Origin: Dillenia suffruticosa | Lineage: Eukaryota > Streptophyta > Magnoliopsida > Dilleniales > Dilleniaceae | DNA length: 64,000 nucleotides | NCBI GenBank assembly: GCA_033439265.1 | Contig: JAVTVX010000017.1 | Span: 6,780,001-6,844,000, forward strand | Reading direction: 5' to 3' | In this document: positions 22,650 through 56,265 of the stretch, piece after piece | Layout: each line of letters begins with the position of its first letter | How positions within the stretch are numbered: the first letter of the stretch is position 1 | The notes under the pieces: model-generated | What the model was told of the DNA's origin: nothing | Database searches by the model: none | Seen by the model: the letters and a program-made list of their open reading frames with translations, nothing else | Made by a program: the position numbers and the translations under genes

Positions 22650-25600
22650 TCATAATTCTAAAAGAGATCTCCTGATGTCAAGCAACTTGGTGAGGGCTTC
22701 TCTCGTGGTCAAGCGATCTTTGGGCAGATAGGCTGCACAGGACAACCCCATTTTTATCAAAGAAGTAAGACACTCTCCGATTCTTCTTTGCCAATTGCAA
22801 TTGCTAGACTCGTTGCTAGCGCTGTTGTTGCTGCCACAGGTGCTCATGCTATAAATCGAAAAGTCATTATCCTTGAAGAGCAGAGGATCAATGATGTCTG
22901 TCACGTCTTGTTGGTTAGCTGAAACAAAGTCTGCTACGCTCAAACTTTCAAATAATCTATCCGTTGGTTTCTTTGCTATGAATATCTCTAGAAGCAGAAT
23001 ACCAAAACTGTAGACATCCCCACTTGTAGAAACTTTGCCTCCCAGGCCATATTCTAAGACAAGGAAAAAATCTCTAGAAAGTGAGAAATAGAAAACAAAG
23101 ATTCATAAGAATTCGACAAATTTTGAGATATGGATGCCTACCTGGAGCAATATAACCAATAGAACCCTTTAGCGCAACTGTGCTACTCTCATTTTGTGAT
23201 GGAGTTTGATCAAGAAACCTCGCCAGCCCAAAATCTCCCACATGAGCTTCCATGTTCTCATCTAACAGAACATTTGCAGGTTTCAAATCGCAATGCACAA
23301 CAGGAGGATCACAGTCATGGTGCAAGTAGTTCATAGCAGATGCTATGTCAATAGTAATGTTGAGCCTCTGAAGCAAATTCAGGCTCATGCTCGATTCTCT
23401 ATCCTCCGGATACAACCATTTGTCAAGATTACCATTGATCATGAACTCTGTGATCAATGCCTTGAATTCAGCTCCGGCATGATCAATGCTAGAGCATGAA
23501 GTAATGACCTTCACCAAGTTCCTGTGTCGAACATTTTTCAAAGCCTCACATTCTGCATTGAAAGTATGAAGGGCTTTGCTTTGCTTCAAGTCGATGACCT
23601 TTATGGCAAATATCCTACATTCATTGTCCACTTCCGAGCAAAAAATTCCCTTGTAAACAGAACCATAGCCTCCTCTACCTATCAAGTTTTCAGGGGAAAA
23701 ATCATCAGTGGCTTGTCGAATATCAGCATATGATATCTTTGGCAGCAATCCTCTAAAAAGAGGAGATGCATTGCCTCTCTTAGCTCTCTTCTTTTGGTAA
23801 ATACAAGACCAAGCAAAACAAAACACTAAGCATATGAGCAGAACAGAGCATAGTATTGGCACCGCAATCTTTATTGCCAAATCTTTGTTTTTCTTGTTTG
23901 TAGCACATGTTGAGATTCCAAGCTTTGAAGCAGACTCTAGGTCAGTGCTGCACAGATTTTCATTTCCTTGGAGTGAATCACGAGAAATGTTCACAAAGAC
24001 TCCATTCCTTGGAACTTGTCCTTCCAAGTCATTGAATGACAACTTCAAACTATTCAAGAGCTTAAGATCTGCCAATTCGTCTGGGATTTGGCCAGAGAGA
24101 TCGTTGAAGGAAAGATCCAATGATTCCAATGCTGATAACTTGCCAATTGTGTCGGGAATTGATCCATTGAAAGTATTATTAGCCAAGACAAGATTGTGCA
24201 AACTTGAGCAACCACCAATTGTTTGCGGTATATGTCCTGACAGTTGATTGTTGGAGAAATCCAGGCTCTCTAGCTGTTTCAAATTACCAACTTCTGAAGG
24301 AAAGGGACCCGTCAATGCGTTATCTGCAAAGATTACATAAACTAGGGTCTGGATGCCAAATATCCCCACTGGTATGCTGCCATCCAGCTTGTTACCAGCT
24401 AAAACTAACGTGGTCAGGCTCTGACATTGCGCTATGCTCTCTGGGATTTTTCCATACAACAAGTTAGTTTCCATTCTGAGCATGAATAATTTGGAAAGAT
24501 TGTCAAAGATATCTGGAATTTCTCCAGAGAACATGTTATCATTCATCAAAAATCTCTGTAATTGCAGGAGCTTTCCAACAGACTTAGGGACTTGACCTGT
24601 AAAGTAGTTTTGCTGTATAGCCAAGGCTGTGAGATTTTCAAACTTCTCAAGTCCTGGGAAGCCACCAGTAAAGAAATTGTCATCAATACAAAGCTCCGTG
24701 AGTTGGGTCGACAGATTTGCGAATGATTTTGGAAGATAACCAGTCAGATTGTTGCTGCTTAGTATGAGTTTTTCAAGCTGAAGACAGTTTGTGAGGTATT
24801 CAAAGAACTGAAAATTGAGGTCTGTGGTAGAAGTAAGATTGTTATAGCCAACATGAAGCCTCACAAGTCCATGCAAACCAGCACCAAACAAAGGCAATGA
24901 GCCTTGAAATTGGTTTGAAGACAAGTCAAGGTCTTGAATGAGTGAAGCATTGACGGTTGTGCTTGGTATTTCACCTTCTAGCATATTCTGAGCAAGATAG
25001 AGTCCGGTGAGATTAGGTAAATGAAGACCAAGGTCAGTAGGTAACTCTCCAACAAGGTAGTTTTTGGAGAGAGATATAAAGACTAATGAAGATATGTTGA
25101 AAATTGAATGAGGTATCTCTCTGGTGAAGTAATTCTCGGAGAGTTGAAGGATTCGAAGATTCTTGAGATTGCCCAATTCATTTGGGAGTTTGTGGGTGAA
25201 GTTGTTTCTCGCTAAGAAGAGCATAGTAAGAGAGGACAGATTTCCATAGGTATGAGGAATTGCACCTGAGAGGTTGTTCAATGCCACGTAGAAAATCGAG
25301 AGCCGTGAAAGATTTCCAAGCTCGTAGGGAAGGGCACCAGTGAGATGGTTAGCATACAAAGTGATTTCTTCAAGACCATGACAGTTGGAGAGACTGCTCG
25401 GGATTGAGCCATAAAAGTTGTTTTGGGCCAGGATTATATGACGAAGATGGGGAAGTTTAAGGAAGTCTAATGATATTTGGCCATAGAATAGGTTGTTTGA
25501 AAGGTCTAGGACTTTAAGGGACGTGAGGTTCGATAAAGAAGAAGGCATGATACCGGAGAGGTTGAGACTAGAAAGTTGAAGTGATTGAACTCGTGACCCT

Positions 25601-25809
25601 TTTGTACAGTTTACACCATACCATGAACAATGAGAAGAGATTGAGTTCCAATCAGATAATGCATCTGAAGGGTCAGAAATTGAGGACTTGAAGGACAAAA
25701 GAGTCTGTTTATCAGTGTTGGCATCCGGTGCTTGCAATTGGGGTATGAACGAATTCACTGTAATTAGGACACTAAAGAAGAGAAGTGACGTGAGATTGAG
25801 GAACTTCAT
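22650..25809 (-). CDS. LRR receptor-like kinase, subfamily XII type (copy 1)
   Basis: Two exons (25809-23142 and 23053-22650, GT-AG, phase 1) encode 1,023 residues. There is a signal peptide (about 1-27), an LRRNT segment with DKQTLLSFKSSISDP, then about 22 extracellular LRRs rich in NxS/T glycosylation sites. A membrane helix lies near 648-670 (VPILCSVLLICLVFCFAW). The cytosolic Ser/Thr kinase has a Gly loop (IGRGGYGSVYKG, about 708), ATP Lys in FAIKV, catalytic loop HCDLKPANVLLDEN (about 838) and DFGLAR. The Cys before the catalytic Asp makes it a non-RD kinase, as in EFR, FLS2 and Xa21 relatives that sense microbial patterns. The single intron inside the kinase domain is typical of that subfamily. 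No frame breaks. Ligand unknown. Faces peptide gene 1 divergently. Confidence 0.93.
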
Positions 25810-28215: not shown

Positions 28216-28575
28216 GAATATTGAATGGTTCCATAGTTCAAGGTTGAGTGAATTATTGGTAATAATTTAGGCAAAGAGCTACGGGAAATAGGACAAACTT
28301 AAATAATATGGCGAAGCGAAGTAAAACCAAAATATGACGCTCATTTCTTTACTCGATTGCAAATGACATGCGCCCGATGATGATATTTGTTCAGGTTTCA
28401 CTTCTTGAGGGCCTACGACCATTTCAAAATTCTGCAGCAACAATGATTTTCTCCTCTGCTATCACAAAAATAATATATAAAATAGACAGGTGTTCTGGCC
28501 AGATCAGATAATTAGTGATCAGTTGTATTCCTGATACTACTAGTAAAGGAATCCAAATCTCCCAGACCCCAGATT

Positions 28576-28634
28576 AAAAAATAAAAATAAAAACAAAAAC
28601 AAAAATAAAAATAAAAATAAAAATAAAAATAAAA
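28576..28634. repeat. A-rich hexamer microsatellite (AAAAAT)n, short copy
   Basis: About nine units, some AAAAAC. Lies about 55 nt before the orphan TATA box; the matching run in the second copy is longer. Confidence 0.85.
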
Positions 28635-28684
28635 TTCGGGTCTTTGCCACGGGGTAATGAAAAAATAGGAACAGCATTCATCTA

Positions 28685-28730
28685 TAAATAGATGGTCTTG
28701 GTATCCAGACTCGGCGCTCTCATCATAATT
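28685..28730 (+). promoter_or_regulatory. Orphan duplicated promoter of the peptide gene
   Basis: Identical to the peptide-1 promoter at 31492-31540 (TATAAATAGATGGTCTTGG) but cut off before the coding start. Downstream lies the next satellite copy instead of a gene. Confidence 0.6.
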
Positions 28731-29034
28731 CATCATAATTTGGTATCCAGACGGAGGCTTGCTGTCAAATTTCAAATTTCATCCCACCATTTCCTTGTCT
28801 TGTTCTGTTACTAATTTGGTTCTTGTAATTAAATATTAAGGTTGTATTATATAAGCCGCTTATAATATAGACTAACAAACCTGGTTTTGGTATGATTTGC
28901 GGGTTGGTATACCAGGCCACAAGACAATATTTTAAAACCAAATTTGGCTTCTGTTCTCAGAAGTATTTATGACTTAATTAATCTTATTTTAAATACACCT
29001 TTTTTAATTACATTAAAGGACTTAATCCTTATAC

Positions 29035-31045: not shown

Positions 31046-31364
31046 TAGTCATGTATTCTAGAATATTGAATGGTTCCATAGTTCAAGGTCGAGTGAATTA
31101 TTGGTAATAATTTAGGCAAAGAGCTACGGGAAATAGGACAAACTTAAATAATATGGCGAAGCGAAGTAAAACCAAAATATGACGCTCATTTCTTTACTCG
31201 ATTGCAAATGACATGCGCCCGATGATGATATTTGTTCAGGTTTCACTTCTTGAGGGCCTACGACCATTTCAAAATTCTGCCTGGCCAGATCAGATAATTA
31301 GTGATCAGTTGTATTCCTGATACTACTAGTAAAGGAATCCAAATCTCCCAGACCCCAGATTAAA

Positions 31365-31582: not shown

Positions 31583-31956
31583 ATGTCCCTGATAAGGACT
31601 ACCCGCGATACGGTGATTGCCATCTCTTTTGTGATGATCCTGCTACTTTTCTCCTCTACCATGGCTTCTGGCATGAAATTAATTGGTAATTTTTAAATAT
31701 TTAGATACCTTACATGAAAAAACTTATTTTTTTCTTTGATTTTTTCTTTTTTTGGTACTCTCTTTATCATAAAGAATGGTACCAGATCGTAGATTTGGAT
31801 CATTTTTCCCATGTTTTATTTTCCATGTAATTTGTATAAGGTTGTTGTTTTGTTCATGCGGCAGGAAGAAGAGGTTTGAGCGGATATGTGCCTGATATCC
31901 CAGGCTATACGACTCCTAGTGGTGGGTGGTCCTCCTATGCGCCTCCTTCTCCATGA
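31583..31956 (+). CDS. Small secreted peptide precursor 1 (unrecognised family)
   Basis: Two exons, 31583-31685 and 31865-31956 (GT-AG, phase 1), encode 64 residues. The N terminus MSLIRTTRDTVIAISFVMIL plus LLFSSTMASG is a typical signal peptide. Exon 2 begins at a dibasic site in the conserved motif MKLIGRRGL. It is followed by GYVPDIPGYTTPSGGWSSY and a Pro-rich end APPSP. There are no cysteines. The shape (signal peptide, basic cleavage site, short Tyr/Pro/Gly-rich tail) fits a secreted signalling peptide precursor, but I cannot assign it to CLE, CEP, PIP, PSK, PSY, RALF or SCOOP. Divergent to receptor kinase 1. The role is inferred from form and neighbourhood only. Confidence 0.7.
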
Positions 31957-32685
31957 TGTTCAAAGTTAATTAAACACGAAATTTTCAGATTTCAACAATC
32001 TTAGTATAAGTTTTTAAGGAAATAAAATTCGTAATTATGTACGTCCGAAATGCAACAGTTAATTAATTTTGGTTGGTGAAATAATTGAGATTCAACTCAT
32101 ATGTTATAAATAATAGAACTCAATTATAGGGAGATGGTGTTAGGGGGCAAAATAATGATATGATACAATATTGTTGAATAGTATCTTATATTATAAGCTA
32201 TCAATCAAGCATTTTATGATTTTTTTTTTTTTTTTTTATCAATGAACTTTTGTCAAATCATATTCGATCTTTGGTTTTCTAGTATATCAAACACCATTCA
32301 TCATACATGAGTTGAACATTTGTTTTATGAAGACAAAATCACACTTCTCTTTCTGGACTCCATTTTCAGACCACCCAAATATTTTGATTTTCAATGGCAT
32401 TAATGGTGATGTATTATCAAAGATGCGGTCAAACAAATGAGCATCGAATTCGAAATTGAATCATACGATTAGTCCAAGACTCTGTGAACTGAGAGGGGTT
32501 ACCTTTAACTATCGAGTAGAAGGCAAAATGACATGGACGAAAAATAAAATGTTAATGTTACCGTCCACAGTAAGCCATGTTTCATAAATTCAGATTAAGA
32601 ATAAAACCTAATCAATCTTAAAAGAATACACAACCAGAACTAAAAAAAAATTGTAAAGAAAAAAAAAATTCCTAGAAAAGCTACA

Positions 32686-32723
<38 letters not shown>

Positions 32724-33020
32724 TAAAAATGGCTCCACAAAAGTTATCAAAGATTATTTTAGTTGTAATTTTTATTGAAATCACGTTGATAATGATACAG
32801 CTGAATTAAAATTTAAATAAGTCTATTTGTACAAATGGATTTTATTTTAAATTTGCGTTATTTGATAAATAAAATTAGTTCTGCATTTAATTTGATTAGC
32901 TAAAGTAATGAACCAATTCAACCATTTTAGCAACGGGAACCACGAGCCACCTATAAATGTGTCGGTTGATTTTTTTTTTTTTTTGGTAGAATGTGTCGGT
33001 TGATTTCTTCAATTATATGT

Positions 33021-33696
33021 ACGGATAAGTCAAAACAGAGGTTGCGCCCGTGAACATCCCGAAATGACCGAGCTGGAGTTTGGTTAAACACCCTCAATCA
33101 CTTCTCGGCCAAACCCTCTCGGTTAAACACCATCACCTATATCTCTCCCACGCTGTTCAGAAAAATCTTTCTGCTACGGTCGACCTCTCGGCTATTGCCA
33201 AGTGGTCTCTAACCGAGTAACGTCTATACTTTACAAATCAATATTATGATCTTCAAAGATTTGAACTTTTCATAATTTTGGAACTAATAAGTTAGAGAAT
33301 TTTCATGATATCTTAAATTTTTCTTAATCTATAAGATCTTAAATTTCTTAAAAATTTTTTACTATAATTTCTGTAATTCCAAAAAATCTTCAATGATCTT
33401 CCTATAAGTTAAGTGTCATTGAGTAAGAGACTTGACATATATACATATGTTATATATATTAAGTACAAGCTACCTACAAGATACATTCGATAACTCTATA
33501 TACACGTATTATACAAAGATACTTTGAACTCAGTTTATTCTCTTTTTCTCTCAATTCTCTTTTAAACTGAGTTTTCTCCTTCCGGCTAATATTTGTAGAT
33601 CTCTCCATCAACAAAAGATCAAAAGATACATCAACATCGATTTTCTGTTTGGGTTAGCAGAGCAATTCATTTGTAAAGTAAATCCATCTTCAACAA
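33021..33696. other. Spacer with no recognised gene
   Basis: Between unit A and the block X remnants. No coding or repeat feature was recognised. Confidence 0.3.
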
Positions 33697-34148
33697 AAAT
33701 ATAATGTAAGAATAAATATGTTGTGTTAAAACATCTAAATAGAAATTGCACATATCATAGTCCAAGGTTGGCTGAATTGATAGGAATCTAATTCTGAGCA
33801 TGAGTTAAAAATGGAGGTGGCGCCCATGGCCTAATGCATATAAAGCGTACTTTCAATTGTGAGTTTAAGTCGCCCGATTCCTCAATTGTGCATTTTTCAA
33901 TTGTACAATGCAAATATTTGTAATGAATTTTACGAGGCTTTTCCGCTTAATAATTTTTTTTTATTTATTTTTTATGACAAAATTTATGAGATATTTTTAT
34001 AACAAATAGTTTAGTTTTTCAATTCCGATGAGAATGATTTATTAACAAAATTAGTGTGTGGTTCAAAATATAATGTAAAGATAAATATGTTGTGTTAAAA
34101 CATTTAACTCGAAATCCTAGATATCATAGTTCAAGGTCGACTGAATTG
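33697..34148. repeat. Partial block X remnants (two tandem pieces)
   Basis: The motif AAAATATAATGTAAGAATAAATATG ... TTCAAGGTTGGCTGAATTG occurs at 33697-33800 and again at 34068-34148. Both match 20655-20760 and 45647-45710. They mark the junction between units A and B. Confidence 0.6.
33811..33965 (+). mobile_element. tRNA-derived SINE-like relic
   Basis: GGCGCCCATGGCCTAATGCA followed about 30 nt later by GTGAGTTTAAGTCGCCC resembles boxes A and B of a tRNA head. A similar head lies at 45362. Weak. Confidence 0.3.
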
Positions 34149-35871
34149 GGTGATGGAGTCGTCCTTAGCAAAATAATGAATGCAACAAAAAGGTTTTGGA
34201 GGAAAAAGGCACGAAAACGCGTCCTTAGCAAAACCAGTAGAAAATGCCTTTACAGATTGTAGTGGTTGGGTTGCGTAATTTTGTTCAAGATACGATAATG
34301 ACATAATTTCTCTCACATACAAATTAATTCACTTCGTAGAAGAGTATTTTCTATGAACGTTTACAAAAAAATTTCATATTCATTGATTAGAGACCGGCAT
34401 TAATTCATTATAGCGTGGGAATCCTTGTTTAGTATAAAAATCAAAAGTTGCCTCACCAACAATCTCACTGGGGAATAGAGAGGGAGAAAGGGAGGCGGGA
34501 GGGGAGGCAGACGCATGTACCGTGGGGAGGATGATTGCGAGTGGGCGGTTTGATTGCGAGCCGTCAGCACCAACGAAAGGTGGGAAATCTGACTTCGTGT
34601 CATCTCATCTCATCTCATCTCTCTCTCTCCTGCACTATTATTTTGTTTTGTTATCCACTTCCATAGCCGGATTAAACGTGTCTTAAGTTTTTGATTCACG
34701 TAGTATTTCGTTGTTGGGGGCACTATCCCAGAGTGATTGAGGTTGTTTCTTCTCTCATTGACTTATTAACCCCCCCCCCCCGGCGGCCCGGGGCCCCAAA
34801 AAAAAGCAATAATTGCAAAATGAAGAAAATAAATTTATTCACCGACCCAATTGATTAAAAATTAGGACTTATTTAATAGCAATATTATCCAAAATTTCAC
34901 ATAACATAATAGCAAAATTAACTAAACAAAATTTGAAGTTACAAAGGAGTTTGTTGTGTTGGTGTTTTAGTAAAAATTGTGAGCTTAAAATTCTAAATTA
35001 TGATTTAATACGTAAAAATTCTATGCAATTGAAAAGTTGATTCCAATTCACTTGAGGAAAAAAAAAAAAAAAAAATAATTAATTGAAAGGGTAGTTAAGT
35101 AATTTGAGATGGAAAAATAGAGACGTCGGCATGGGGCAGACCGGAGAAAAACGAACGAAAGAGTAGGGGGATGGGGAAGGGAAGGAAAATGAATTGGATT
35201 GCATGGAAGAGTTAACGTGGAGGCTCACGTGCATGGTAGTATACGTGGCATGCATTCCTTTCCTCTCCCTGTTCTCAATTTTCACAGTCAAATTCATTAT
35301 TATATGTTAAGATTATTTTAATTTATGTGATTTTTCTTTTCAAGTGAGATTGAAAGATTATTTATATGAATTTAATATTGATGATTTCCCAGGTTACGGG
35401 ATGACGTCAACCCACGTCATTCTTTCATTCATCCTTCGAATCCAAAAGGTCTCGTTCCTTAGTCCAGTCCGGTGCCCCTGATGATCACCGCCTTCCGGTG
35501 GAGTGAGGCATAAAGTCAAAAGAATTTGATTTATTGAAAATTACTGATATTTTCCAAAGAAAAAAACATAATTGGAATGACAAAATTTAGTAACAAAAAG
35601 ATTCGTTGCTATTTCACGAAGAATTTAACGATGAATATATCTTTCATTACTGTTTGACAATAAAATTTGTGATAAAAATATATTCGTAACAAAATTAACA
35701 ATGAATATTTTGTTCATAATTAAATTTGTCATTAATTAGTCATCAAAATATTTTTGTCATAAAATTTATAATTAATTAGCGACGAATAAAAATTTCCTAA
35801 TTAAATGTTGTCATGAATCAAGTATTTATCACTAAATTAAATTAAGTGATCGTACTTAAAAATATTTGGAT
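34149..35871. other. Spacer between block X remnants and unit B
   Basis: No gene recognised. It has a short CTCAT/CT repeat at about 34598-34628, a GC-only burst at 34771-34795 and a poly-A run near 35060. Open frames at 34131, 34400 and 35079 have no recognisable content. Confidence 0.35.
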
Positions 35872-35944
35872 TATATAAATGGCACCTAGTCCACACCAGC
35901 GACATTAATACAAAACCATTATTTTCCTTGAGTATGTTTGTGGC

Positions 35945-36150
35945 CTTAAAAGAGGGTATGTTTTAGCGTAACAGTTGAATTACTTGTTTTTTTGTGATCT
36001 CGAGTTCACGAATTCAAAACATGAAAATAATCTCTTTGTAAAAATTCAACGAGAGAATTGCATACATATACGTCAACCCTCTCCCTATCTCTGTATTAAA
36101 TCCAGGAATAATTTATACACGGATTGAACCCTCCATGTTTGTGGTCTTAA
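35945..36150 (+). mobile_element. Au-SINE-like relic
   Basis: TTTTAGCGTAACAGTTGAATT, TTGTGATCTCGAGTTCACGAAT and ATAATCTCTTTGTAAAAATT follow the order of a plant Au-type SINE head and body, heavily diverged. It is absent from the matching place in unit A. Boundaries uncertain. Confidence 0.3.
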
Positions 36151-36495
36151 AAAGATTAGAAGATCAAGCATCCATCTAAACCTGTCCACTCCTTTGCCAC
36201 AACCCCACACTCAGTTATGCAAAAATTTAAATAGGGCTGAGGGACATGGTTCAAGTAAGACCCCCGATACCCTTTACTTAATGTTTCATAAGTGCAGTAG
36301 TCCTACAGTTGTTTTATCCAATTGTTACATATAATTTGATTTAGAAACGCCAATTAAAGGAAATCATGTGACAGAGAAAAGAATGAATGGCTTTCACGTC
36401 TTAGTTTTCTCTGTTTTTAAACAAGTTGGCAAGAAATCAATTACCTCTAAAGTTCTCATCGTAGACCATCTCCAGAGAAGTAACACAATGTGATC

Positions 36496-36681
36496 ATGTT
36501 TAATGTGCCAGCAGTTGTCGCCTTGGTTTTTTCTTTCTTTGCGAAAGAAAATTCACATGGATTCATAGCGAGTGACGTAGAACTGGTGCATATAAGAAGA
36601 AAAAACATGAAGAGAAGCCCTCAACAATTCTTGTATTGTGCGTCTGGCTCTTTTTTCTCAAAAATTATAATATTGATCTAA
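36496..36681 (+). CDS. Small ORF with signal-peptide-like start, function unknown
   Basis: ATG 36496 opens 61 codons. The first 16 residues are hydrophobic (MFNVPAVVALVFSFFA), followed by KENSHGFIASDVELVHIRRK and a basic tail, so it could be a small secreted peptide or the first exon of a lost gene. The upstream 750 nt are conserved with unit A, where the matching ORF (22166) is frameshifted. No known family recognised and no transcript evidence; it may be non-functional. Confidence 0.35.
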   Translation: MFNVPAVVALVFSFFAKENSHGFIASDVELVHIRRKNMKRSPQQFLYCASGSFFSKIIILI

Positions 36682-36779
36682 TTCAATTCATTTCAAATGG
36701 AATTAAATTCTTAAAAAATAAAATTATTTCGATATCTATTTTATCATATATAACATTTGAACTTGATATCTTACGAAGT

Positions 36780-38154
36780 GGGTCTAAGAAATTGGCATAG
36801 TGACTCAGTATTCTTTTTTTTTTATTTTATTTGACGATGAGACCCGGAAAATAAATAATATATGATAAATAAAAAAATTATATATTGTAGGACTATAAGT
36901 AACCAGATAACCTATCAAATCCGAGACATGGCAGGTGGTTTCGGACCGATTTTTTGGGTTCAAACGGCCCATTTTAGATAATAATCGGGTCTCTTGGGCT
37001 GATGCAGGCCTGAGTCATGAAACCCGTACGGAATCCGAACCCGACCGAATGCTAACGCAAGCTATTTTTTTTTTTTTTTTTTTTTTTTTTGCATCTTAGT
37101 ACGTCATCGTTTTTAGCACTAATATATTCTTTATCCTCTCTGCCGTTCCCAACCCTCACCGATTTCACCTCTCTAAATCTCTCTCTCTCTCAGATCCTCT
37201 CTTCCTCTTTCTCTCATTCTCTGTGAAATGCTAAAGGTATAAGTCGTAACTCTTAAGCCCCATGATGAGCTGCTGAGCGTGAATCGTGGGCTACGCGCCA
37301 CGGGATGCCTTCGATCTGAGTTTATGGTTTTCCATTTTTCTTTTTCTCAATCTTTGATCCAGGGGATTTCTTCTATCTTCAGGATTTTCGTTTATGTTTT
37401 TTTTTTTCTTCCTCGTGTATGATCTTTTAGTTTGGGATTTCATGGGTTTTCTTTTTTTTTTTTTCTATATTCATTTCGTTTGAAACGTTGAAATGTGCTT
37501 GGATTTGCACTTTGCATGGCTTTCTTGCCTTGTCTTTCTTGCCTTATTTGCCCTTGGATTTTCGTTATTTTCTCTGTAGTTCTTAGCATGGCTTTTTTGT
37601 TATTAATAAGTGTTGGTTTTTAGTTTATATATAACGATAACGATATAATTTTAGGCCTTCAATTTAAATTAAATGCTGTTTTTATTCAATGTTAAAGGTA
37701 AAAAGTGTAAATCAACCAACGCGCATGAACCCACCCGAACCCGTTAATCCGAAGCATTATCGGTTCCGGCACTCTAGGGTTCGATACTGAATGAAAAAAT
37801 CTCAAGCCAACAGCTATTTGGTCAGACGAGATTTCCCAATTTCTTGTATGGTGCAGAAATTGTGGCCGTATGATATCTTAGTGCAATTATAATGATTGGC
37901 TTTCTTAAACAAGCATTAGTTTTAATTTAAATAATATATTTCATAATAGATAAGTCAACAGAGATTTAAAGACTTTCGTTTTACTTATTTAAAGAAAACC
38001 TTCCACTATGTTCATTCCTATCTGTTCTAATAAAATTTACTTGATTTGCATTTCTTTTTTTATTTGATAATCTTTTTATTTCTGGATGATTTTTATTTTG
38101 ACCAGTAAACTATTAATTTCTCCTGCATTTTAATTACGTCAGAGTCTCTTAACA

Positions 38155-38188
<34 letters not shown>

Positions 38189-39205
38189 GCAGGTCAATTA
38201 TGACTCTTCCTGATTGCTTGCTTTGCCGGGCATTCAGATTTACCTTTTTGGTCATGAATAATTGTTGGTCGACTTTGAAGTGTGGGTGGCTTTGTTCCAC
38301 AAACCCTTTTCAAAACATAAGGTTTAACTTTTGTTGCTAAATAATACGAGGTTTGAAATTTATACTTATTTATCTTTGTTCTGTTGTCTAACTGTAGTAA
38401 CTACAAACTAGGTCAAAGTATGACCAAATCATGTGTAGACCGGATCTTAACTAATAATTTGACTTCGAACAAGTCCTATATACTTTTTCGCATGTTTGTT
38501 CTTTGAATTCACATAAATGCCGAGCCATAAACGAAGGGGCGAGTTTTGAGCCCTACCCAATGTAACCTGTACACGATCTTCTGTGGTGCTTAAGAATTAT
38601 GTCGCGGGGAGGAGCTAGAGGCTTCGCCTCTCAGTGGTCCCAATCTGATCCATACCTTTGGATCGTATGTACAAACATAGATACGTTACGTATGTATGTT
38701 GTAACTTCTTAGGATTTTGATACCCTTTGAGTTTCGGATATGTTAGAGGTTTTTGATAGCTGTTATTATTTTTTTATTTTTTTTTTTATCTTTTTTGATA
38801 CGGTGAATTTGTTTCTCACTTTATCCATGAACTTATATTATTTAATCAAATTATGTAAATTCTATCCATATTTAAGATTTATGTAATTAATTTTAAAGAT
38901 TATTGCTTATTTTTAATATTTTGTTGGTTCCATATTATATATATTTTTATGTCAATACTATTGTGTATAGATATTCACGAAGTTGGTGAGCTATGAATAA
39001 CCATGCAATAATTGCTAATCATCTATTATTTTGGTTTCGCAGGGATTTATTACTGCTGGATATTAGAATACTCATGGAAATGATAGAACAAACGCTTTAC
39101 TAAAAATAATGGAGGGTTGAAGATGCTGATCATTTGTTCATCTACTATGTGTAATAGTTTTCACTTGGTGTCACAATTTTCAAATAGTCCAAAATATATA
39201 TATTC
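36780..39205. mobile_element. About 2.4-kb insertion specific to unit B
   Basis: Interrupts the alignment with unit A between about 22450 and 22505. It contains a poly-T run (37063-37091), a CT-rich leader-like stretch (37130-37240), GGGTTCGGGT-type subterminal words in inverted sense near 36930-37060 and 37720-37790, a TTA microsatellite (38156-38188) and a hairpin AGAGGC-TTC-GCCTCT near 38621. No protein-coding content was recognised. It could be a non-autonomous hAT-like or retrotransposed element; ends and TSD were not resolved. Confidence 0.45.
38156..38188. repeat. TTA microsatellite
   Basis: About 11 ATT/TTA units inside the unit B insertion. Confidence 0.9.
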
Positions 39206-39353
39206 TTATAACATTTGACGCTTAGTAATCTATACTCAAAAAGCCATAGTATACTGCAAAAACCCAACAATATATATATTTTTTTGAAATATCATAAACA
39301 CTTAATGCAGGTTGAGCGCCCTTGCCCAACAATATATCCAAAATACGAACTCG

Positions 39354-42300
39354 TCATAATTCTAAAAGAGATCTTCTAATGTCAAGCAACTTGGTGAGGA
39401 CTTCTCTCATGGTCAAGCGATCTTTGGGCAAATCGGCTGCACAGGACAACCCCATTTTTATCAAGGAAGCAAGACACTCTCTGATTCTTCTTTGCCAATT
39501 GCTAGACTCGTCGCTAGCACTGTAGTTGCTGCGACTGGCGCTAACGCTATAAATAGAAAAGTCATTATCCTTGAAGAGCAGCGGATCAATAATGTCTGTC
39601 ACGTTTTGTTGGTTAGCCAAAACATAGTCTGCGAGGCTCAAACCATCAAATAATCTATCCGTTGGTTTCTTCGCTATGAATATCTCTAGAAGCAGAATAC
39701 CAAAACTGTAGACATCCCCACTTGTAGAAACTTTGCCTCCCAGGCCATATTCTAAGACAAGGAAAAAATCTCTAGAAATTGAGAAATAGAAAACAAAGAT
39801 TCATAAGAATTCGACAAATTTAGAGCTATGGATGCCTACCTGGAGCAATATAACCAATAGAGCCCTTTAGCGCAACTGTGCTACTCTCATTTTGTGATGG
39901 AGTTTGATCAAGCAACCTTGCCAACCCAAAATCTCCCACACGGGCTTCCATGTTCTCATCTAACAGAACATTTGCAGGTTTCAAATCGCAATGCACAACA
40001 GCAGGATCGCAGTCATGGTGCAAGTAGTCCATAGCAGATGCTATGTCAATCATAATGTTGAGCCTCTGAAGCAAATTCAGGCTCATGCTCGATTCTATAT
40101 CCTTTGGATACAACCATTCTTCAAGATTACCGTTTATCATGAACTCTGTGATCAATGCCTTGAATTCAGCTCCTGTATGATCAATGCTAGAGCATGAAGT
40201 AATGACCTTCACCAAGTTCCTATGTCGAACGTTTTTCAAAGCCTCACATTCTGCGTTGAAAGTACGAATGGCTTTGCTTTGCTTCAGGTCGATAACCTTT
40301 ATGGCAAATACCCCACATTCATTGTCCTCTTCCAAGCAAAAAATTCCCTTGTAAACAGAACCATAGCCTCCTCTACCTATCAAGTTTTCTGGGTAAAAAT
40401 CGTCAGTGGCTTGTCGAATGTCAGCATACGATATCTTTGGCAGCAATCCTCTAAAAGGAGGAGATGCATTGCCTCTCTTAGCTCTCTTCTTTTGGTAAAA
40501 ACAAGACCAAGCAAAACAAAACACTAAGCATATGAGCACAACAAAGCATAGTATTGGCACCGCAATCTTGATCGCCAGATCTTTGTTTTTCTTGTTTGTA
40601 GCACATGTAGAGATTCCAAACTTTGGAGCAGACTCTAGGTCAGTGCTGCACAGATTTTCATTTCCTTGGAGTGAATCACGAGAAATGTTCACAAAGACTC
40701 CATTCCTTGGAACTCGTCCTTCCAAGTCATTGAATGACAAGTTCAAACTATTCAAGAGCTTAAGATCTGCCAATTCGTCTGGGATTTGGCCAGAGAGATC
40801 GTTGAAGGAAAGATCCAATGATTCCAATGCTGATAACTTGCCAATTGTGTCGGGAATTGATCCATTGAAAGTATTATTAGCCAAGACAAGATTGTGCAAA
40901 CTTGAGCAACCACCAATGGCTAGCGGTATATGTCCTGACAGTTGATTGTTGGAGAAATCCAGGCTCTCTAGCTGTTCCAAATTACCAACTTCTAAAGGAA
41001 AGGGACCCGTCAATGCATTATCCGCAAAGATTAAATAAACTAGGGTTGGGATGCCAAATATCCCCACTGGTATGCTGCCATCAAGCTTGTTACCAGCTAA
41101 AACTAACGTGGACAGGGTCTGACATTGCGCTATGCTCTCTGGGATTTTTCCATACAACCTGTTAGTATCCATTCTGAGCATGAATAATTTGGGAAGATTG
41201 TCAAAGATATCTGGAATTTCTCCAGAGAACATGTTATCATTCATCGAAAATCTCTGTAATTGCAAGAGCTTTCCAACAGACTTAGGGATTTGACCTGTTA
41301 AGTAGTTTTGCTGTATAGCCAAGGCTGTGAGATTTTCAAACTTCTCAAGTGCTGGGAAGCCACCAGTAAAGAAATTGTCGTCAATACAAAGCTCTGTGAG
41401 ATGGATCGACGGATTTGCGAATGATTTTGGAAGTCGACCCGTCAAATTGTTGCCACTTAGTATGAGAACCTCAAGCTGAAGACAGTTTGTGAGGTATTCA
41501 AAGAACTGAAAATTGAGTTCTGTGGTAGAAGTAAGATTGTTATAGCCAACATGAAGCCTCACAAGTCCATGCAAACCAGCACCAAACAAAGGCAATGAGC
41601 CTTGAAATTGGTTTGAAGACAAGTCAAGGTCTTGAATGAGTGAAGCATTGAGGATTGTGTTTGGTATTTCACCTTCTAGCATATTTTGAGCAAGATAGAG
41701 TCTGGTGAGATTTGGTAAATGAAGACCGAGGTCAGTAGGTAACTCTCCAACAAGGTAGTTATAGGTGAGGGATATTTTAACTAATGAAGATATGTTGAAA
41801 ATTGAATGAGGTATCTCTCCGGTGAAGCAGTTCTCGGAGAGTTGAAGGACTCGAAGATTCTGGAGACGGCCCAATTCATTTGGGAGTTTGTTTGTGAAGT
41901 TGTTTCTCGCTAAGCAGAGCATAGTAAGAGAAGACAGGTTTCCATAGGTAGGAGGAATTGCACCAGAGATGTTGTTCGTTGCCACGTTGAAAATTGAGAG
42001 CCGTGAAAGATTTCCAAACTCATATGGAAGGGCACCAGTGAGATGGTTAGTATGCAATGTGATTTCTTCAAGGTCATGACAGTTGAAGAGACTGCTCGGG
42101 ATTGAACCATAAAGGTTGTTTTGGCCCAGGATTATTTGACGAAGAAGGGGAAGTTTAAGGAAGTCTAATGATATCTGGCCATAGAATAGGTTGTTTGAAA
42201 GGTCTAGGACTTTAAGGGACGTGAGGTTGGATAAAGAAGAAGGTATGATACCGGAGAGCTTGAGACCGGATAGTTGAAGAGATTGAACTTGCGAGCCTTT

Positions 42301-42507
42301 CGTACAGTTTACTCCAAACCATGAACAATGAGAAGAGATTGAGTTCCAATCAGATAAAGCATTTGAAGGATCAGAAATTGAGGACTTGAAGGACAAGAGA
42401 GTCTGCTTATCAGTGTTGTTATCAAGGGCTTGCAATCGGGGTACGAACAAATTCACTGAAATCAGAACATTGAAGAAGAGAAGTGACGAGAGATTGAGAA
42501 ACTTCAT
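39354..42507 (-). CDS. LRR receptor-like kinase, subfamily XII type (copy 2)
   Basis: Two exons (42507-39840 and 39751-39354, phase 1) encode 1,021 residues. Exon 1 has exactly the same length (2,668 nt) as in copy 1. The in-frame codon at 42540 is TTG, so ATG 42507, aligned with copy 1, is the likely start. Domains are as in copy 1: signal peptide, LRRNT, about 22 LRRs, membrane helix (VPILCFVVLICLVFCFAW), and kinase with IGRGGYGSVYKG, HCDLKPANVLLDEN and DFGLAR (non-RD). Exon 2 lacks two codons present in copy 1 (CNWQRR region). Differences are scattered through the LRRs (for example LVKISLTYNY against LVFISLSKNY), so the ectodomains may differ in recognition. Intact. Divergent to peptide gene 2, with about 1.3 kb between ATG and that gene's TATA box. 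Confidence 0.93.
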
Positions 42508-43304
42508 TCTTGTTTTTTTTTTGTTTTTTTTGTTGGCCAAGAATTTAGATTAAAGAATGCAGAGAATGGGAGGCAGTCTAAGCATACGTTATTACTGTAC
42601 AAGGCAGAGAATATTGAAAGAATAATCTATAACTATGGAGGCTAGCTGTCATATTTCAAATTTCATCCGACCATTTCATTGTCTTGTTCTGTTACTAATT
42701 TGGCTCTTGTAATTAAATATCAAGGTTTGAGTATGATTTGCAGTAGGGTATACTAGGTCACAAGGCAATATTTTAAAACAGAATTTGGTTTTAATCATGA
42801 GTATATTTAAACCTAATTATATTTTATTTACCTGGTTTCAACATATGTTGACATTTTCTACCGAAAAGGATCAATTTAAAAAAGATAATTTATGCTAATG
42901 AGTCACTTCAAGATTGACAAGTCTTCAAATATCTCCCAAATAATGCGACAAGCTGTCGTGCCAAGCACATTATATTAAATTGGAAATAATGAGTAACCTA
43001 ATTGAACCGGCAGTGAAATTCAAATCTTCTATAGTTTGTTGAGCACATCATATTAAAGGGAAAAAAAAAAAAGATTTTTGACACAAAATCAATGGAAAAG
43101 CAAAAGACTAAGGTGGGCTCTCAGAAGTATTTATGACTTAATTAATCTTATTTTTAAATGCAAATTTATTAATTACATTGAAAGACTTAATCCTCATAAA
43201 TATGAAATGCATTGTAGAATGAAGCTTTCGCAGTAATTATATTATTATATATATAAAAAAAAATCGTGTCGTCTGCTTTCAAGTCAAGTTTAAGCTAGTA
43301 CCGG

Positions 43305-43430
43305 AGCCTTCTAATCGTCCAAAAAGAAAAAGGACAAAAATGGCTGCACCAGAGACTTGCAGACTAAGCTGACCCAAACGGAATTGATAGCATCGATGGT
43401 GATGTACAATCGTGTTGTGTTCTAAAACAT
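43305..43430. repeat. Single diverged satellite monomer in unit B
   Basis: Carries CTTCTAATCGTCC, AAAATGGCTGCACCAGAGACTT, GACCCAAACGGAATTGAT and GATGTACAATCG in the monomer order. This is the likely unexpanded state from which the unit A arrays grew. Confidence 0.75.
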
Positions 43431-43851
43431 GGAACGGTTCCATAGTTTCAAGGTCGAGTGAATTATTGATAGGAATTTAATTTTGACCGAAGACAAGGAG
43501 TCACGGGAAAAAGGACAAACTAAAATAATGGTAAAGAGGACGCTCATTTCTTGATTCAATTGCAGAAGACATGCACCTGATGATGATTTTTGTTCTGGTT
43601 TCACTTCTTGAGGGCCTATGACCATTTCAAAATTCTGCAGCAATAATAATGATTTCCTCCCATGCTATCATAAAAATAATATATGAAGTAGACTAGATGT
43701 TCTGACCAAATCAAATAATCAGGTGATGAGTTGTATTCCTGATACTACCAGTGAAGGAGTCCAAATCTCCCAGCACCCCCAGATGGGAAAAAAATTAAAA
43801 AAATTCATGTCTTTGTCAAGGGGTAGTGAAAAAATAGGAACACTATTCATC

Positions 43852-43858
43852 TATAAAT
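43852..43858 (+). promoter_or_regulatory. TATA box of peptide gene 2
   Basis: TATAAAT, 86 nt before the ATG, in a context matching peptide genes 1 and 3. Confidence 0.65.
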
Positions 43859-43937
43859 GGCTGGTCTTAGAATCGAGACTTGGTGCTCTTATCATAATTC
43901 CCTTTTGCCTTTCTGTCTCTAAAAATCCCGAATCAAA

Positions 43938-44255
43938 ATGTCTCTGCGAAGGACAACCCGCAATATGGTGATTGCCATCTCTTTTGTGATGATCCTGCCG
44001 CTTATCTCCTCTACCATGGCTTCTGCCATGAAAGTAATTGGTAATTTGTGAATATTTAGATACTTTGCATGAAAAAAACTTCTTTTTCCTTTTTGGTATT
44101 CTCTTTATCAATTTTCCCAAGTTTTATTTTCAATGTAATTTGTATAAGGTTTTTGTTGCGTTCATGTGGCAGGAAGAAGAAGTTTGGGCAAATATGCGCC
44201 TGATCTACCAACCTATGGAACTGGTGGTGGTGGGTACTACGTGCCACCTCCATGA
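43938..44255 (+). CDS. Small secreted peptide precursor 2 (same family)
   Basis: Exons 43938-44040 and 44173-44255 (phase 1, same intron position as copies 1 and 3) encode 61 residues. Signal peptide MSLRRTTRNMVIAISFVMIL continues to about ASA. Conserved junction motif MKVIGRRSL is followed by a tail GKYAPDLPTYGTGGGGYYV and PPP. It shares Y-x-P-D-[IL]-P-x-Y with copy 1 and the Pro-rich C terminus. Intact frame, TATA box and splice sites suggest a working gene. Function not known; secretion and dibasic processing are inferred. Confidence 0.7.
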
Positions 44256-44950
44256 TGTTCAAAGTTAATTAGACATGAAGATTTTCAGATTTCAACAATC
44301 TTAGTATAAGTATTTAAGGAAATAAAATTTGTAATTTTGTACGTCCGAAATGCAGCAGCTAATTAATTTTGGTTGGTGAAAAAATTGAGATTCAACTCAA
44401 GTGTTTAAATACTAGAATTCAATCATAGAGAGATGTTGTTAGGGGGCGAAATAATGATATGATACAATATTCTTGAGTAGTATCTTATATTATAAGTTAT
44501 CATACAAATATTTTATGATTTTTTTTTTTTTATCAATAAACTTGGTCAAATCATATTTGATCTTTGGATTTTTAGTATATCAAACACCATTCATCGTACA
44601 TGGGTTGAACATGTCTTATATGAAGACAAAACTACATCCAAATATTTTGATTTTCCATGGCATTAATGGTGATGTATTATGAAAAATAGTGGTAGTTCCA
44701 TGTACGGAATAAACAAATAAGCATCGAACACGAAATTGATACATACCATTGGTCCAAGATTGTGTGAATTGAGAGGGGTTACCTTTAAATTTTTTATTTA
44801 AAGGCAAAATGACATGGAAGAAAAATAAAATGTTACCATCCATAGTAAGCCTAAGGCATAGTCAATCTTAAAAGCATACACAACATGAACTAAGAAAAAT
44901 GTAAAGAAAACAAAATACCCTAGAAAGCGACGTGTGGCTCCGCTTATCAG

Positions 44951-44952
44951 GA

Positions 44953-45001
<49 letters not shown>
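44951..45001. repeat. GA microsatellite after peptide gene 2
   Basis: About 25 GA units. A shorter GA run lies in the same place of unit A (32692-32721), so it predates the duplication. Confidence 0.9.
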
Positions 45002-45003
<2 letters not shown>

Positions 45004-45361
45004 ATACAAATGGCTCTACAAAAGACTTCGAAGATTATTTTAATTGCAATTTTTATTAAAATCATGTTGATGATAATGTCCCGTGAGATGGTTTCTACAG
45101 TTTGAGAAATAATACTTAGTATGCAAAATTAATTAGTTAAAATAAGTGAATTAAAATTTAAATAAGCCTATCATATAAATGGAATTTATTTTTGAATTCG
45201 CATTATCTAATAAATACTTCTAAAAATTAGGTCTGTATTTAATTTGTTTATTGATGATAAATGAACCAATTAAACCTTTTTAGCAAGGTGAACCGCAAGC
45301 CACTTGGAAATGTGTCGGTTGATTTCTTCGATGATGGCTAAGGATAAACCAACGTACAAAA

Positions 45362-45545
45362 AGTTGGCGCCCGAGGCCTAATGGATCAGGGATCATGGGT
45401 TTGAGTCTCGCCAGGCGTGATTTCTTCGATTATGAAATATATATGTTTGTAATTAATTTTTGTACTCGATTTTTATACTTTTTTTAATAAATTATTTATC
45501 ATTTAATGAATTAAAAAATTATGAAAAACTCAATAAGTTTTTATT
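45362..45545 (+). mobile_element. tRNA-derived SINE-like relic
   Basis: GGCGCCCGAGGCCTAATGGA and CATGGGTTTGAGTCTCGCC resemble boxes A and B about 30 nt apart, followed by a T-rich body. Similar to 33811-33965. Confidence 0.35.
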
Positions 45546-45610
45546 ATTATTTTTTACGACAAAACTTATAAGATATTTTACAACAAAGAGTTTGATTTTT
45601 TTCAATTGGG

Positions 45611-45921
45611 TTGAGTATGATTTATTAACGAAATTAGTGGTGGTTCAAAATATAAGGTAATAATAAATACCATAATTAAGGTCCACTGAATTGATAGAAT
45701 TTAATTTTGGATATAAATCAAAATTTCATTGGAGGTAGGAAAAATTAAATGATAGTGAAGTGAAAACAAAAAATATAAAACTCATTTGTTGAGTACCCTT
45801 ATAGAGTTTGATTTGTAAGACCACAAAATAATTTAATCATGATGATTCCCAAATCAAATAATCAAGCGATGAGTTGTATTCTTCGTAGAGTTGGTGGATT
45901 TCTACAGTAACCAAGAAGAAA

Positions 45922-45952
<31 letters not shown>

Positions 45953-46560
45953 TTTTTCCTTTATACTAATTGGTATTTTCAAAATCATATTTTAATTAAT
46001 TCAATTTAAATATTTATCAAATCCATTTTAAAAATAATTACGATATATTTTTTTCCCAAGAACAAACATATATTATACCTCAACACGTGCGTCAAATATT
46101 TTTGCTGGACCTTGAAGGCCTGATAATGCTAAATTTGATTTTGAACTTACGAAATGAAAACCCACAAAGACCATGACTTGCCATTACACAAATCATTCGG
46201 CCGGTGCCATGAGTTTGAGTGACACGGCACAACGCCATCCAGAACTCGTGTGGCTCGATGTTTCCATTTTAGGAAAAAACATTAAAAGAAATTTCTCAAA
46301 TTTGTCGATGGAAAGAATCACTTCACATACCCAATCATGCCCACAAGAAATGGAAAATTTCTTGCAAATATTTTTGTATTTTTTAAAAAATATTTTAAAT
46401 AAATTAAATACCGAGGCTTTATACACGCACACAATAGGTTATAATGTTTCTGGAAAATTCACGTAGAATTAATAACGTTTGTGGAAGATTGAGGTGGACA
46501 ATGTCGTGGAGTTGACCGCATCAAGAGCGACTGCTCCATAAGCGTGCACTTCACCATCCA
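45611..46560. repeat. Cluster repeat block X, copy 2
   Basis: Matches 20629-21440. Contains a TA run (45927-45952). A segment at about 46165-46290 (CGGCCGGTGCCATGAG ... GATGTTTCCATTTTAG) recurs at 63190-63290 beyond the ABCG gene. Confidence 0.75.
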
Positions 46561-47078
46561 CGGGCCAGGACCAACGTCTATTTTTTATCTTATGGGTGTA
46601 ATTCTTGCAAATATTTTTACTCGTAACCCAATTTTCTTTGATCATTACGAACCCATGACTTGATCAAAGTCAAGCCGGCGCCCATGGCACCAGGAAATAA
46701 ACAGACAAAACATCACAAATAGAAGTGAAGAACATGAAAGTCAATTCAAACCACCGCAGTTTAAGAAACCTAGATTTAGAAATGCAGTAGTAGCTTTATC
46801 AAACATGTTGGTTTTTATCACTTAAAAAAATATATACTATAAAGTAGAAGGGTCGAAAGTATTTCTACAAACATTATTGAATAACAATGGAAGTAATTGC
46901 ACGACTCAGACTATATATGCTGAGCATGACATTGTGCTGCTTTTGTTGAAAGAGTCATCTTACCTCTTTATTTCAAATGGAGCAAGCAATTTTACAGTTT
47001 ATGGCCAGCCAAAAAATGATAATGATAATAATAATAAAGACTTTAATTTCACGGCGTTTATGGAGCATTCGTGAAAGG

Positions 47079-47115
<37 letters not shown>

Positions 47116-47160
47116 TCTGCCCGCCATGAGGTTTTAAAAAATAGGAGAGGTTTGAAAAAA
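46561..47160. other. Upstream region of peptide gene 3
   Basis: No receptor kinase sequence is present here, unlike units A and B. It contains a TA run (47085-47110). An open frame at 46877 is not recognised. Confidence 0.4.
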
Positions 47161-47177
47161 TAGGAGTAGCATTCATC

Positions 47178-47186
47178 TATAAATAG
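47178..47186 (+). promoter_or_regulatory. TATA box of peptide gene 3
   Basis: TATAAATAG, 112 nt before the ATG, preceded by AGGAGTAGCATTCATC as in the other two peptide genes. Confidence 0.65.
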
Positions 47187-47289
47187 TTGGCCTTAGTATC
47201 CAGATTCTGCACTCTCATCATAATTCTCCCTTTTGCTTTTCTAAGTTTCTCAAATTCCCAATTGTCTCGCACAAAAATATTAAATCAAA

Positions 47290-47731
47290 ATGTCTCTGCT
47301 GCGGACTGCCCGCAACAGAGTGATTGCCATCTCTTTAGTGATGCTCCTGCTGATTGTGTCCTCCTCGGCTTCCGGCATGAACCTAATTGGTAATTTGTAA
47401 ATATTTAGAAATTAAAAAAAAAAAAAAAAAAACCTTCTTTTTTGCTTTTTTTCTTAAAGTGTCTTTCATGAAATGTAACGGTGCAACATCATAGATTTGG
47501 ACCATTTTCCCCATGCGTATTTGCTTTTCCAAGTAATTTGTATAAGTTATTCTGTTATGTACCGTGACAGGAAGAAGAGGTCTGAGCACTGAAGCGGCTT
47601 ATGAGACTGCTGGTCGTAGTGGGTACAACGGCGAAACAACTTATGAGACTGCTGGTCGTAGTGGGTATAACGGCGAAACAGCTTATGAGACTGCTGGTCG
47701 TAGTGGGTACAACGGCGAAAATGGGAAGTGA
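47290..47731 (+). CDS. Small secreted peptide precursor 3 with triplicated 14-residue repeat
   Basis: Exons 47290-47389 and 47571-47731 (phase 1) encode 86 residues. Signal peptide MSLLRTARNRVIAISLVMLL then IVSSSASG. Junction motif MNLIGRRGLSTE as in copies 1 and 2. Exon 2 then carries three near-identical 42-nt repeats encoding [A/T]YETAGRSGYNGE[T/N], and ends NGK before TGA. Repeated units after a signal peptide suggest a precursor giving several similar mature peptides, or simply a slippage product. After the stop, the same frame continues with a stretch resembling copy 2 (GKYA.D), so the C terminus has been lost by a premature stop. No partner receptor lies beside it. Confidence 0.65.
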
Positions 47732-48304
47732 GGAAGGGGAGGCGGCAAATATGCGCATGATTGGGAAGCTACTTTACTGGGGTGAAATTTAAAGAAATAA
47801 ATAAATATATATATATATATATATATATGATATATAATTTTAAAAATTATAACCCAGCCTCTTTAAAATTGTAATTTTAAATAAATAAATAGATGTATTG
47901 TACTTCCCCGTCTATAAGTTTATGGCTTTCCTTTGCAGGGTAGTATGTACCATCTCCATGAGGTTCAAAGTTAGACATCAAGAATTATTAGATTTGGACA
48001 ATCGTGGTATTTGTGTTTGTAGGGAGAGAAGTTTTATAGTTATAAACGTTTTGCAATTAAATTAATAATGAAAATAATAATTATGTTTACCTTTTATCTT
48101 TTCCTACTTCTCAAATCCCTGGCTTCACCAAAATTCAATTTTGCTGAGAATTTTGCAACTTATGCTGAAACCGGAAACCCGGTTGTATGGACCGGAAGAA
48201 AAAAGGGGCCTATTCATTTGCTTTTGAGCCGAAAATACACTCTACCACAGGTCAAAAAGATAAGTTGATCACAACCAGAGCAATCCATTCTTTACTTGAA
48301 TATC
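47732..48304. other. 3' flank of peptide gene 3, up to the retrotransposon
   Basis: Contains a TA run (47802-47828), and at 47939-47962 a match to the 3' end of peptide gene 2 (GTATGTACCATCTCCATGAGG against TACTACGTGCCACCTCCATGATG). A 66-codon frame at 48068 starts with a hydrophobic segment but is not recognised. Confidence 0.4.
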
Positions 48305-48309: not shown

Positions 48310-48318
48310 TGTAACACT

Positions 48319-48359
<41 letters not shown>

Positions 48360-48393
48360 AAAATTAGGGCTTAAAGCCCTAATTCTTTTTTTA

Positions 48394-48444
<51 letters not shown>

Positions 48445-50886: not shown

Positions 50887-50893
50887 GTTCTAT

Positions 50894-50904
50894 TGGTATC
50901 AGAG
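50894..50904 (+). other. Primer binding site (initiator tRNA-Met)
   Basis: TGGTATCAGAG, seven bases after the end of the 5' LTR; matches the 3' end of plant initiator tRNA-Met. Confidence 0.85.
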
Positions 50905-52784: not shown

Positions 52785-52789
52785 GTACC

Positions 52790-56167: not shown

Positions 56168-56195
56168 ATTCTCTTTTAGTTTCGAGGACGAAACT

Positions 56196-56215: not shown

Positions 56216-56224
56216 TGTAACACT

Positions 56225-56265
<41 letters not shown>

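Follow-up and report, generated by a model that had tools for sequence, protein, structure and literature searches.

The window analysed here is a 64,000-nt stretch of the Dillenia suffruticosa genome (596 Mb in 37 contigs; assembly GCA_033439265.1, contig JAVTVX010000017.1, hereafter C17; C17:6780001-6844000), and it contains three small two-exon genes, c1, c2 and c3. We give an even chance to the reading that c1 and c2, and probably c3, encode precursors of small secreted signalling peptides, which would form a young, lineage-restricted and phytocytokine-like family. Gene structure, a common RRxL site, duplication in a block with a receptor kinase and rapid change in the peptide exon are features that can be read from the DNA itself.

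Three two-exon genes of common architecture

All three genes lie on the + strand. In c1, exon 1 (31583..31685) encodes a signal peptide and ends in MKLIG, a phase-1 GT..AG intron of 179 nt follows (31686..31864), and exon 2 (31865..31956) encodes RRGL and then SGYVPDIPGYTTPSGGWSSYAPPSP, giving a product of 64 amino acids (aa). The corresponding parts of c2 are a signal-peptide exon 1 (43938..44040), a phase-1 GT..AG intron of 132 nt (44041..44172) and an exon 2 (44173..44255) encoding RRSL followed by GKYAPDLPTYGTGGGGYYVPPP (61 aa in total). Those of c3 are a signal-peptide exon 1 (47290..47389), a phase-1 GT..AG intron of 181 nt (47390..47570) and an exon 2 (47571..47731) encoding RRGLSTEA and then three near-identical 14-aa units (86 aa in total), which correspond to a 42-bp tandem repeat of three near-identical units (47598-47720). 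Signal peptides were assigned by sequence reading and hydropathy: 3/3 precursors show a hydrophobic core with small residues at −3/−1, by a hydropathy rule rather than SignalP. The Gly codon preceding RR is split by the phase-1 intron in every gene (G/RR), and retention of the intron leads in each to a stop directly after IGN[FL] in the unspliced reading. TATAAAT is located 90, 86 and 112 nt 5′ of the ATG in c1, c2 and c3, AATAAA is found 3′ of every stop, and none of the precursors contains a cysteine. The motif M[KN][LV]IGRR[GS]L is present in all three products and Y[VA]PD[IL]P[GT]Y in c1 and c2. The first-pass annotation of this stretch had described the TATA context, the two-exon anatomy with a phase-1 intron at the same codon, the signal peptide, the junction motif and the second motif of copies 1 and 2, and the gene models confirm this description.

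We scanned both strands of the window for the strict combination of a signal-peptide exon, a phase-1 GT..AG intron and an RRxL exon. The + strand yields three models, exactly c1–c3, and the − strand yields none; ten second-order Markov sequences as long as the window do not yield a single model on either strand. As predicted gene models the three two-exon genes are real, and c1, c2 and c3 are paralogues by descent. Frame, intron phase, signal peptide and RRxL are common to 3/3 intact models, which speaks for precursors of signalling peptides.

Predicted processing at RRxL

RRGL or RRSL is found in all three window copies and in an exon on contig C20 described below, and is absent from a copy on contig C16 (motif presence alone). 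AtS1P cleaves RALF23 between INRRIL and ATRRY and SBT3.5 cleaves PROSCOOP12 between TGRRLM and GSGASG (PMC13082318, PMC13157962); the RRxL site is found in some RALFs only (PMC13082318). By analogy, R-R-[GS]-L is better read as an RRxL/RxxL subtilase site of the S1P/SBT3.5 type than as a generic dibasic site. We ranked plain dibasic processing lower because plant precursors with an upstream RR have a characterised RRxL/RxxL protease. The dibasic release of peptides of 24–27 residues that had been proposed earlier agrees in length with c1 and c2 (27 and 24 residues 3′ of RR) but not with c3 (50 residues), and its cleavage site gives way to RRxL.

We infer expression, splicing, cleavage and signalling of c1–c3 along the following lines. 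The precursor would be secreted via the exon-1 signal peptide, a subtilase of the S1P/SBT3.5 type would cut at RRxL after secretion and free a Tyr/Pro/Gly-rich peptide, and this peptide would be perceived by a leucine-rich repeat (LRR) receptor kinase on the surface of nearby cells. By analogy, the mature peptide would start after L, as SGYVPDIPGYTTPSGGWSSYAPPSP (25 aa) in c1 and GKYAPDLPTYGTGGGGYYVPPP (22 aa) in c2, and the c3 release product would comprise the three units (48 aa).

Duplication in a block with receptor kinase genes

The earlier reading overlooked that c1 and c2 each stand head to head with a co-duplicated LRR receptor kinase gene on the − strand. RLK-B (39354..42507; exons 42507-39840 and 39751-39354; 1021 aa) and c2 are divergent with 1,430 bp from ATG to ATG, and RLK-A (22650..25809; exons 25809-23142 and 23053-22650; 1023 aa) and c1 are divergent at a distance of 5.8 kb, a gap widened by repeats of later origin. 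Two W-box cores are located in the RLK-B/c2 intergenic region (42508..43937); the 1 kb upstream of c1 contains none and that upstream of c3 contains three. An AT-rich tandem array of ~159-bp units occupies 26320-28226 and 29151-31071 between RLK-A and c1 and was duplicated along with its flanks (25920-28435 to 28751-31280, 99% identical). A promoter-only copy of the c1 upstream region (28495..28731, + strand; TATAAAT at 28683), without peptide-coding sequence, is a remnant of a recent 2.5-kb duplication (99% identity).

In a comparison of the window with itself, the RLK-A region (22505-26012) matches the RLK-B region (39210-42727) at 92.5%, 21801-22295 matches 36137-36641 at 85%, and, counting gaps, the regions of c1 and c2 agree at 76%. 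Kimura two-parameter (K2P) distances between c1 and c2 amount to 0.152 in the intron, 0.139 in the 3′ flank, 0.192 in the promoter and 0.086 in the first 225 nt past the stop, and the synonymous divergence (Ks) of exon 1 is 0.142. For the coding sequences of RLK-A and RLK-B we obtained a Ks of 0.13, a nonsynonymous divergence (Ka) of 0.05 and a Ka/Ks of 0.39; the receptors are constrained. Since the receptor Ks is close to the intron and flank distances of the peptide genes, both were copied at about the same time, and the DNA is most simply read as receptor and peptide gene having been copied as one unit. c3 is older, with an intron divergence of 0.47 to c1 and 0.49 to c2.

Copies elsewhere in the genome

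Searches of the genome give counts that are lower bounds, the best candidates having been scored. The protein search with c1 exon 1 returns four matches (c1, c2, c3 and C16), and the DNA search with c1 returns eight stretches that represent seven copies (four in the window, namely c1, c2, c3 and the promoter-only copy, two on C20 and one on C16). With c2 exon 2 as query two matches are obtained (c2 and C20), and a composite c3 exon-2 query matches c3 and C16 only among the candidates scored. On these counts the family is tiny: at least six gene copies were found besides the promoter-only copy, three intact (c1–c3) and three broken or partial on C16 and C20; these searches did not find a further intact copy beyond c1–c3.

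The C16 copy (c4) is 93% like c3 across the first aligned stretch; its exon 1 ends in a stop codon, a second stop stands where c3 has RR, and one unit corresponds to the three of c3. The three-unit repeat of c3 is a recent in-frame expansion and, by analogy, parallels multi-copy peptide precursors. The terminal stop of c3 recurs in c4 and is therefore old. On C20, a paralogous block (C20:7378500-7398300) has its receptor and peptide genes reduced to relics; ~14 kb are largely colinear with window positions 34.5–46.9 kb, some pieces being displaced. The peptide relics are c5, which consists of exon 2 only (GRRGLWDCAPDISTYGTGGDGYNVTPP; one Cys), and c6, a decayed copy of exon 1; a receptor relic of 198 bp is located ~0.4 kb from c5, on the opposite side of c5 relative to the order in the window. 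From this arrangement it seems that the receptor already adjoined the peptide gene before the two blocks diverged, and that both were then lost on C20.

We did not keep the view that c3 exon 2 is unrelated to that of c1 and c2, because the c3 repeat DNA matches c2 exon 2 (p 0.003) in CTGGT.GT.GTGGGTAC.ACG. The repeat DNA does not match c1 exon 2 (p 0.67), and shuffles of the repeat-unit protein are not significant against c1 (p 0.35) or c2 (p 0.27). At the DNA level, the stretch downstream of c3 matches c2 (p 0.001) and, to a lesser degree, c1 (p 0.016); c2-like exon-2 remnants follow the c3 stop (47732..48018, + strand), with a GKYA.D-like piece at 47745-47761, a c2-like 3′ end at 47938-48018 and AT-rich sequence in between. 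Beyond c3 lies a Ty3/gypsy-type long terminal repeat (LTR) retrotransposon (48310-58769) with LTRs of ~2.6 kb that are 98.5% identical and with gag/pol-like frames. An ABC-transporter-like gene occupies 58496-62317 on the − strand; its ABC2_membrane match falls just under the Pfam cut-off, and its DNA at 59332-62317 has one other short match (83%, on C12).

Candidate receptors

RLK-A and RLK-B are ~90% identical. The main exon of RLK-B contains LRRNT, LRRs and a kinase domain (Pfam), its best match in the PDB is FLS2 (E 2.4e-142), followed by At4g26540 and MIK2, and both proteins carry the non-arginine-aspartate (non-RD) catalytic loop VVHCDLKPANVLL (HCDLKPANVLL). Subgroup XII LRR receptor kinases are typically non-RD. 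Judged by domains, non-RD loop and PDB match, not by a kinase tree, RLK-A and RLK-B appear subgroup-XII-like; from FLS2-type kinases they differ in being isolated in their genome and in each lying by a peptide gene.

We searched the genome with RLK-B as DNA and as protein. The DNA search (E≤1e-30; four candidates scored) returns RLK-B, RLK-A and the C20 relic, each of which adjoins a copy of the peptide gene. The protein search (E≤1e-60; 51 of 2016 candidates scored) lists 35 matches, and among these only RLK-A is more than 44% identical to RLK-B; the pair looks like an isolated branch in its own genome. The strict scan, which detects the same architecture only, finds no peptide-gene model at the loci of 28 further receptor-kinase matches or, for 8 of these, in the 5 kb upstream. 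Outside the window it covered 217,685 bases in all (loci L013–L015, L021–L048 and L049–L056), and we dropped the idea of similar peptide genes by other LRR receptor kinases on its yield of 0 models. Nine LRR receptor kinase matches, 38–42% identical to RLK-B, lie within ~4 Mb on C16 (C16:13.1-17.2 Mb); in the parts of this cluster that were scanned, a peptide gene of the c1–c3 type was not found.

Linkage, co-duplication and co-loss single out RLK-A and RLK-B as the candidate receptors to consider first. The signalling-peptide reading includes a narrower one, with an overlapping probability, in which the peptides are self ligands of RLK-A and RLK-B and both partners are kept as head-to-head pairs. 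The divergent neighbours in two copies with a receptor Ks (0.13) near the distances of intron (0.15) and flank (0.14), the peptide-gene copy beside all three DNA matches, the isolation of the pair among the 35 protein matches, the empty scans at the other kinase loci and the joint decay of both partners on C20 are consistent with such a private module. However, both pairs go back to a single duplication and C20 seems to derive from that same ancestral block, so that the linkage counts as one observation; the relic order on C20 differs from that of the window, and the linkage may be hitchhiking. Moreover, no receptor kinase was seen beside the C16 copy in the 9.9 kb covered there, c3 is without a receptor kinase of its own, and subgroup XII LRR receptor kinases are implicated in microbial pattern recognition (PMC10834447). 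We regard the private module as unlikely.

Family identity

The first-pass annotation could not match the products to a named peptide family. This holds for the sources searched, i.e. Pfam, PDB and paper text, in which the motifs of CLE, CEP, PIP, PSK, PSY and systemin were not checked singly. Pfam-A gives no model at E≤10 for c1 and c2 and, for c3, only Collagen (10.8 of 27.2 bits) and GRP (11.5 of 30), both sub-threshold, and the profile search of the PDB gives two matches only (E 0.54 and 0.61), which we regard as chance. A scan of viral_contigs produced 23 pattern matches and no relative. Letter strings of the window peptides occur in open-licence paper text only in intein papers, without a relative, and GRR-type strings only as TGRRLM in a review; by titles and the openings of abstracts, no linked peptide–receptor pair or similar family in the open-licence literature matches. 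The precursors are thus supported as small, cysteine-free, two-exon products, secreted by the hydropathy rule and outside the named families of the sources searched.

The composition of their ends (GGGGYYVPPP, WSSYAPPSP) and, for c3 only, the sub-threshold glycine-rich and collagen matches would also fit secreted structural or antimicrobial small proteins of a Tyr/Gly/Pro-rich cell-wall type that act receptor-free. Against this stand the very short products, the non-repeated sequences of c1 and c2, the processing-like RRxL in common and the lack of any family model at the cut-off, and we consider structural or antimicrobial proteins improbable.

Rates of change along the precursor

We compared mismatches in exon 1 and intron between paralogues. 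Exon 1 changes more slowly than the intron in c1–c3 (20/100 vs 61/177, p 0.013) and c2–c3 (20/100 vs 47/132, p 0.013), as do its nonsynonymous sites (c1–c3, 12/74 vs 61/177, p 0.004; c2–c3, p 0.017); nonsynonymous against synonymous sites of exon 1 are not significant for c1–c3 (p 0.10). Exon 2 is the fastest part between c1 and c2, with a Ka of 0.32–0.345 and a Ks of 0.22–0.23 (range set by gap placement), and changes at over twice the neutral flank rate. In one gap placement, 16/58 nonsynonymous sites differ, an excess over intron and flank sites (115/902, p 0.0045) and over receptor synonymous sites (p 0.002); the alternative placement gives 15/57, and the p values are for 16/58. Between c1 and the C20 exon, Ka is 0.42 and Ks 0.335, faster than between c2 and the C20 exon (Ka 0.20, Ks 0.19), so exon 2 apparently sped up on the side of c1. 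Its acceleration may stem from diversifying selection or from conversion by a lost copy. Signs of purifying selection are confined to exon 1 in the comparison with c3; between c1 and c2 the peptide exon is not conserved but accelerated.

Several observations weigh against precursors of signalling peptides. (i) Phase-1 introns near signal-peptide cleavage sites are common in secreted proteins (PMC1626468), and the phase-1 intron is therefore weak evidence of kinship. (ii) The initial 20 nt of exon 2 do not show fewer mismatches than the intron rate predicts (P 0.87 for c1–c2, 0.13 for c1–c3, 0.23 for c2–c3), so common descent can by itself account for the junction motif; the IGRR junction described as conserved is present in 3/3 products, but we dropped the claim that it is conserved beyond chance. 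(iii) Exon 1 is near neutral between c1 and c2 (Ka 0.103, Ks 0.142) and does not differ from the flanks (7.5 of 78, p 0.60). (iv) The exon-2 Ka/Ks of 1.4–1.5 is indistinguishable from 1 (p 0.57), and c2 and the C20 exon diverge about neutrally. (v) The rate tests were picked after the data had been seen, which makes the excess of exon 2 over the flanks a post hoc result, and gene conversion from a lost copy could have produced it. (vi) 3/6 gene copies are broken or partial, so that any intact one may be decaying.

The last point, together with exon 2 of c1–c2 being without purifying selection and exon 1 showing little of it, leads to the alternative that the genes are decaying or never-functional duplicates, i.e. 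a chance secreted open reading frame that was carried along as the receptor kinase block multiplied, without selection as a peptide. Yet 3/3 window copies have retained an open frame, their splice sites and the signal peptide, the exon indels between c1 and c2 are in frame whereas introns and flanks carry many indels, and exon 1 shows constraint when its divergence from c3 is set against that of the intron. We doubt this alternative as much as that of structural proteins.

Comparison with known peptide systems

Signalling-peptide precursors of the kind proposed for c1–c3 have their closest counterpart in PROSCOOPs of Arabidopsis (receptor MIK2). PROSCOOP precursors have two coding exons, the first for the signal peptide and the second for the peptide (PMC9784617), are without cysteine and are arranged in tandem (PMC6382344), and SCOOPs are defined by an SxS motif (PMC8448819, PMC11331138). 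The likeness of c1–c3 extends to short secreted precursors with exon 1 as signal peptide, absence of cysteine, a predicted two-exon layout, an RxxL/RxLx site (GRRLM in PROSCOOP12), tandem copies, divergent sequences and duplicated units, the last seen in some PROSCOOP members. In contrast, SxS/SxT is found in 0/3 exon-2 products, and the peptides are Tyr/Pro-rich where SCOOPs are Ser-rich. RALFs such as RALF23 likewise have RRxL directly before the mature peptide but are cysteine-rich, unlike c1–c3. CTNIPs (receptor HSL3) are small secreted precursors of similar length (CTNIP4 ends at residue 70), but CTNIP4 activity needs two conserved cysteines (PMC9191895), which c1–c3 do not have. By analogy, c1–c3 may work like a SCOOP-type phytocytokine precursor, and we do not claim that they are one: a divergent PROSCOOP branch beyond the known range, for which architecture, GRRxx site and tandem arrangement are alike, is very unlikely with SxS in 0/3 products and PROSCOOPs reported from Brassicales only (PMC11331138).

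A peptide gene duplicated with an adjoining receptor that lacks a close listed paralogue constitutes a directly testable pair. Without binding, the locus would be a clean example of a very young peptide family with fast turnover. The most far-reaching outcome, to which we assign a low probability, is a lineage-specific module in which an RRxL peptide and a non-RD, LRR-XII-like receptor stand head to head and are duplicated together, the receptor being constrained, the peptide diversifying, and a self peptide being perceived rather than a microbial pattern. If binding were found, it would show that new plant signalling pairs can arise together at one place and that receptors of the subgroup XII type can serve self peptides.

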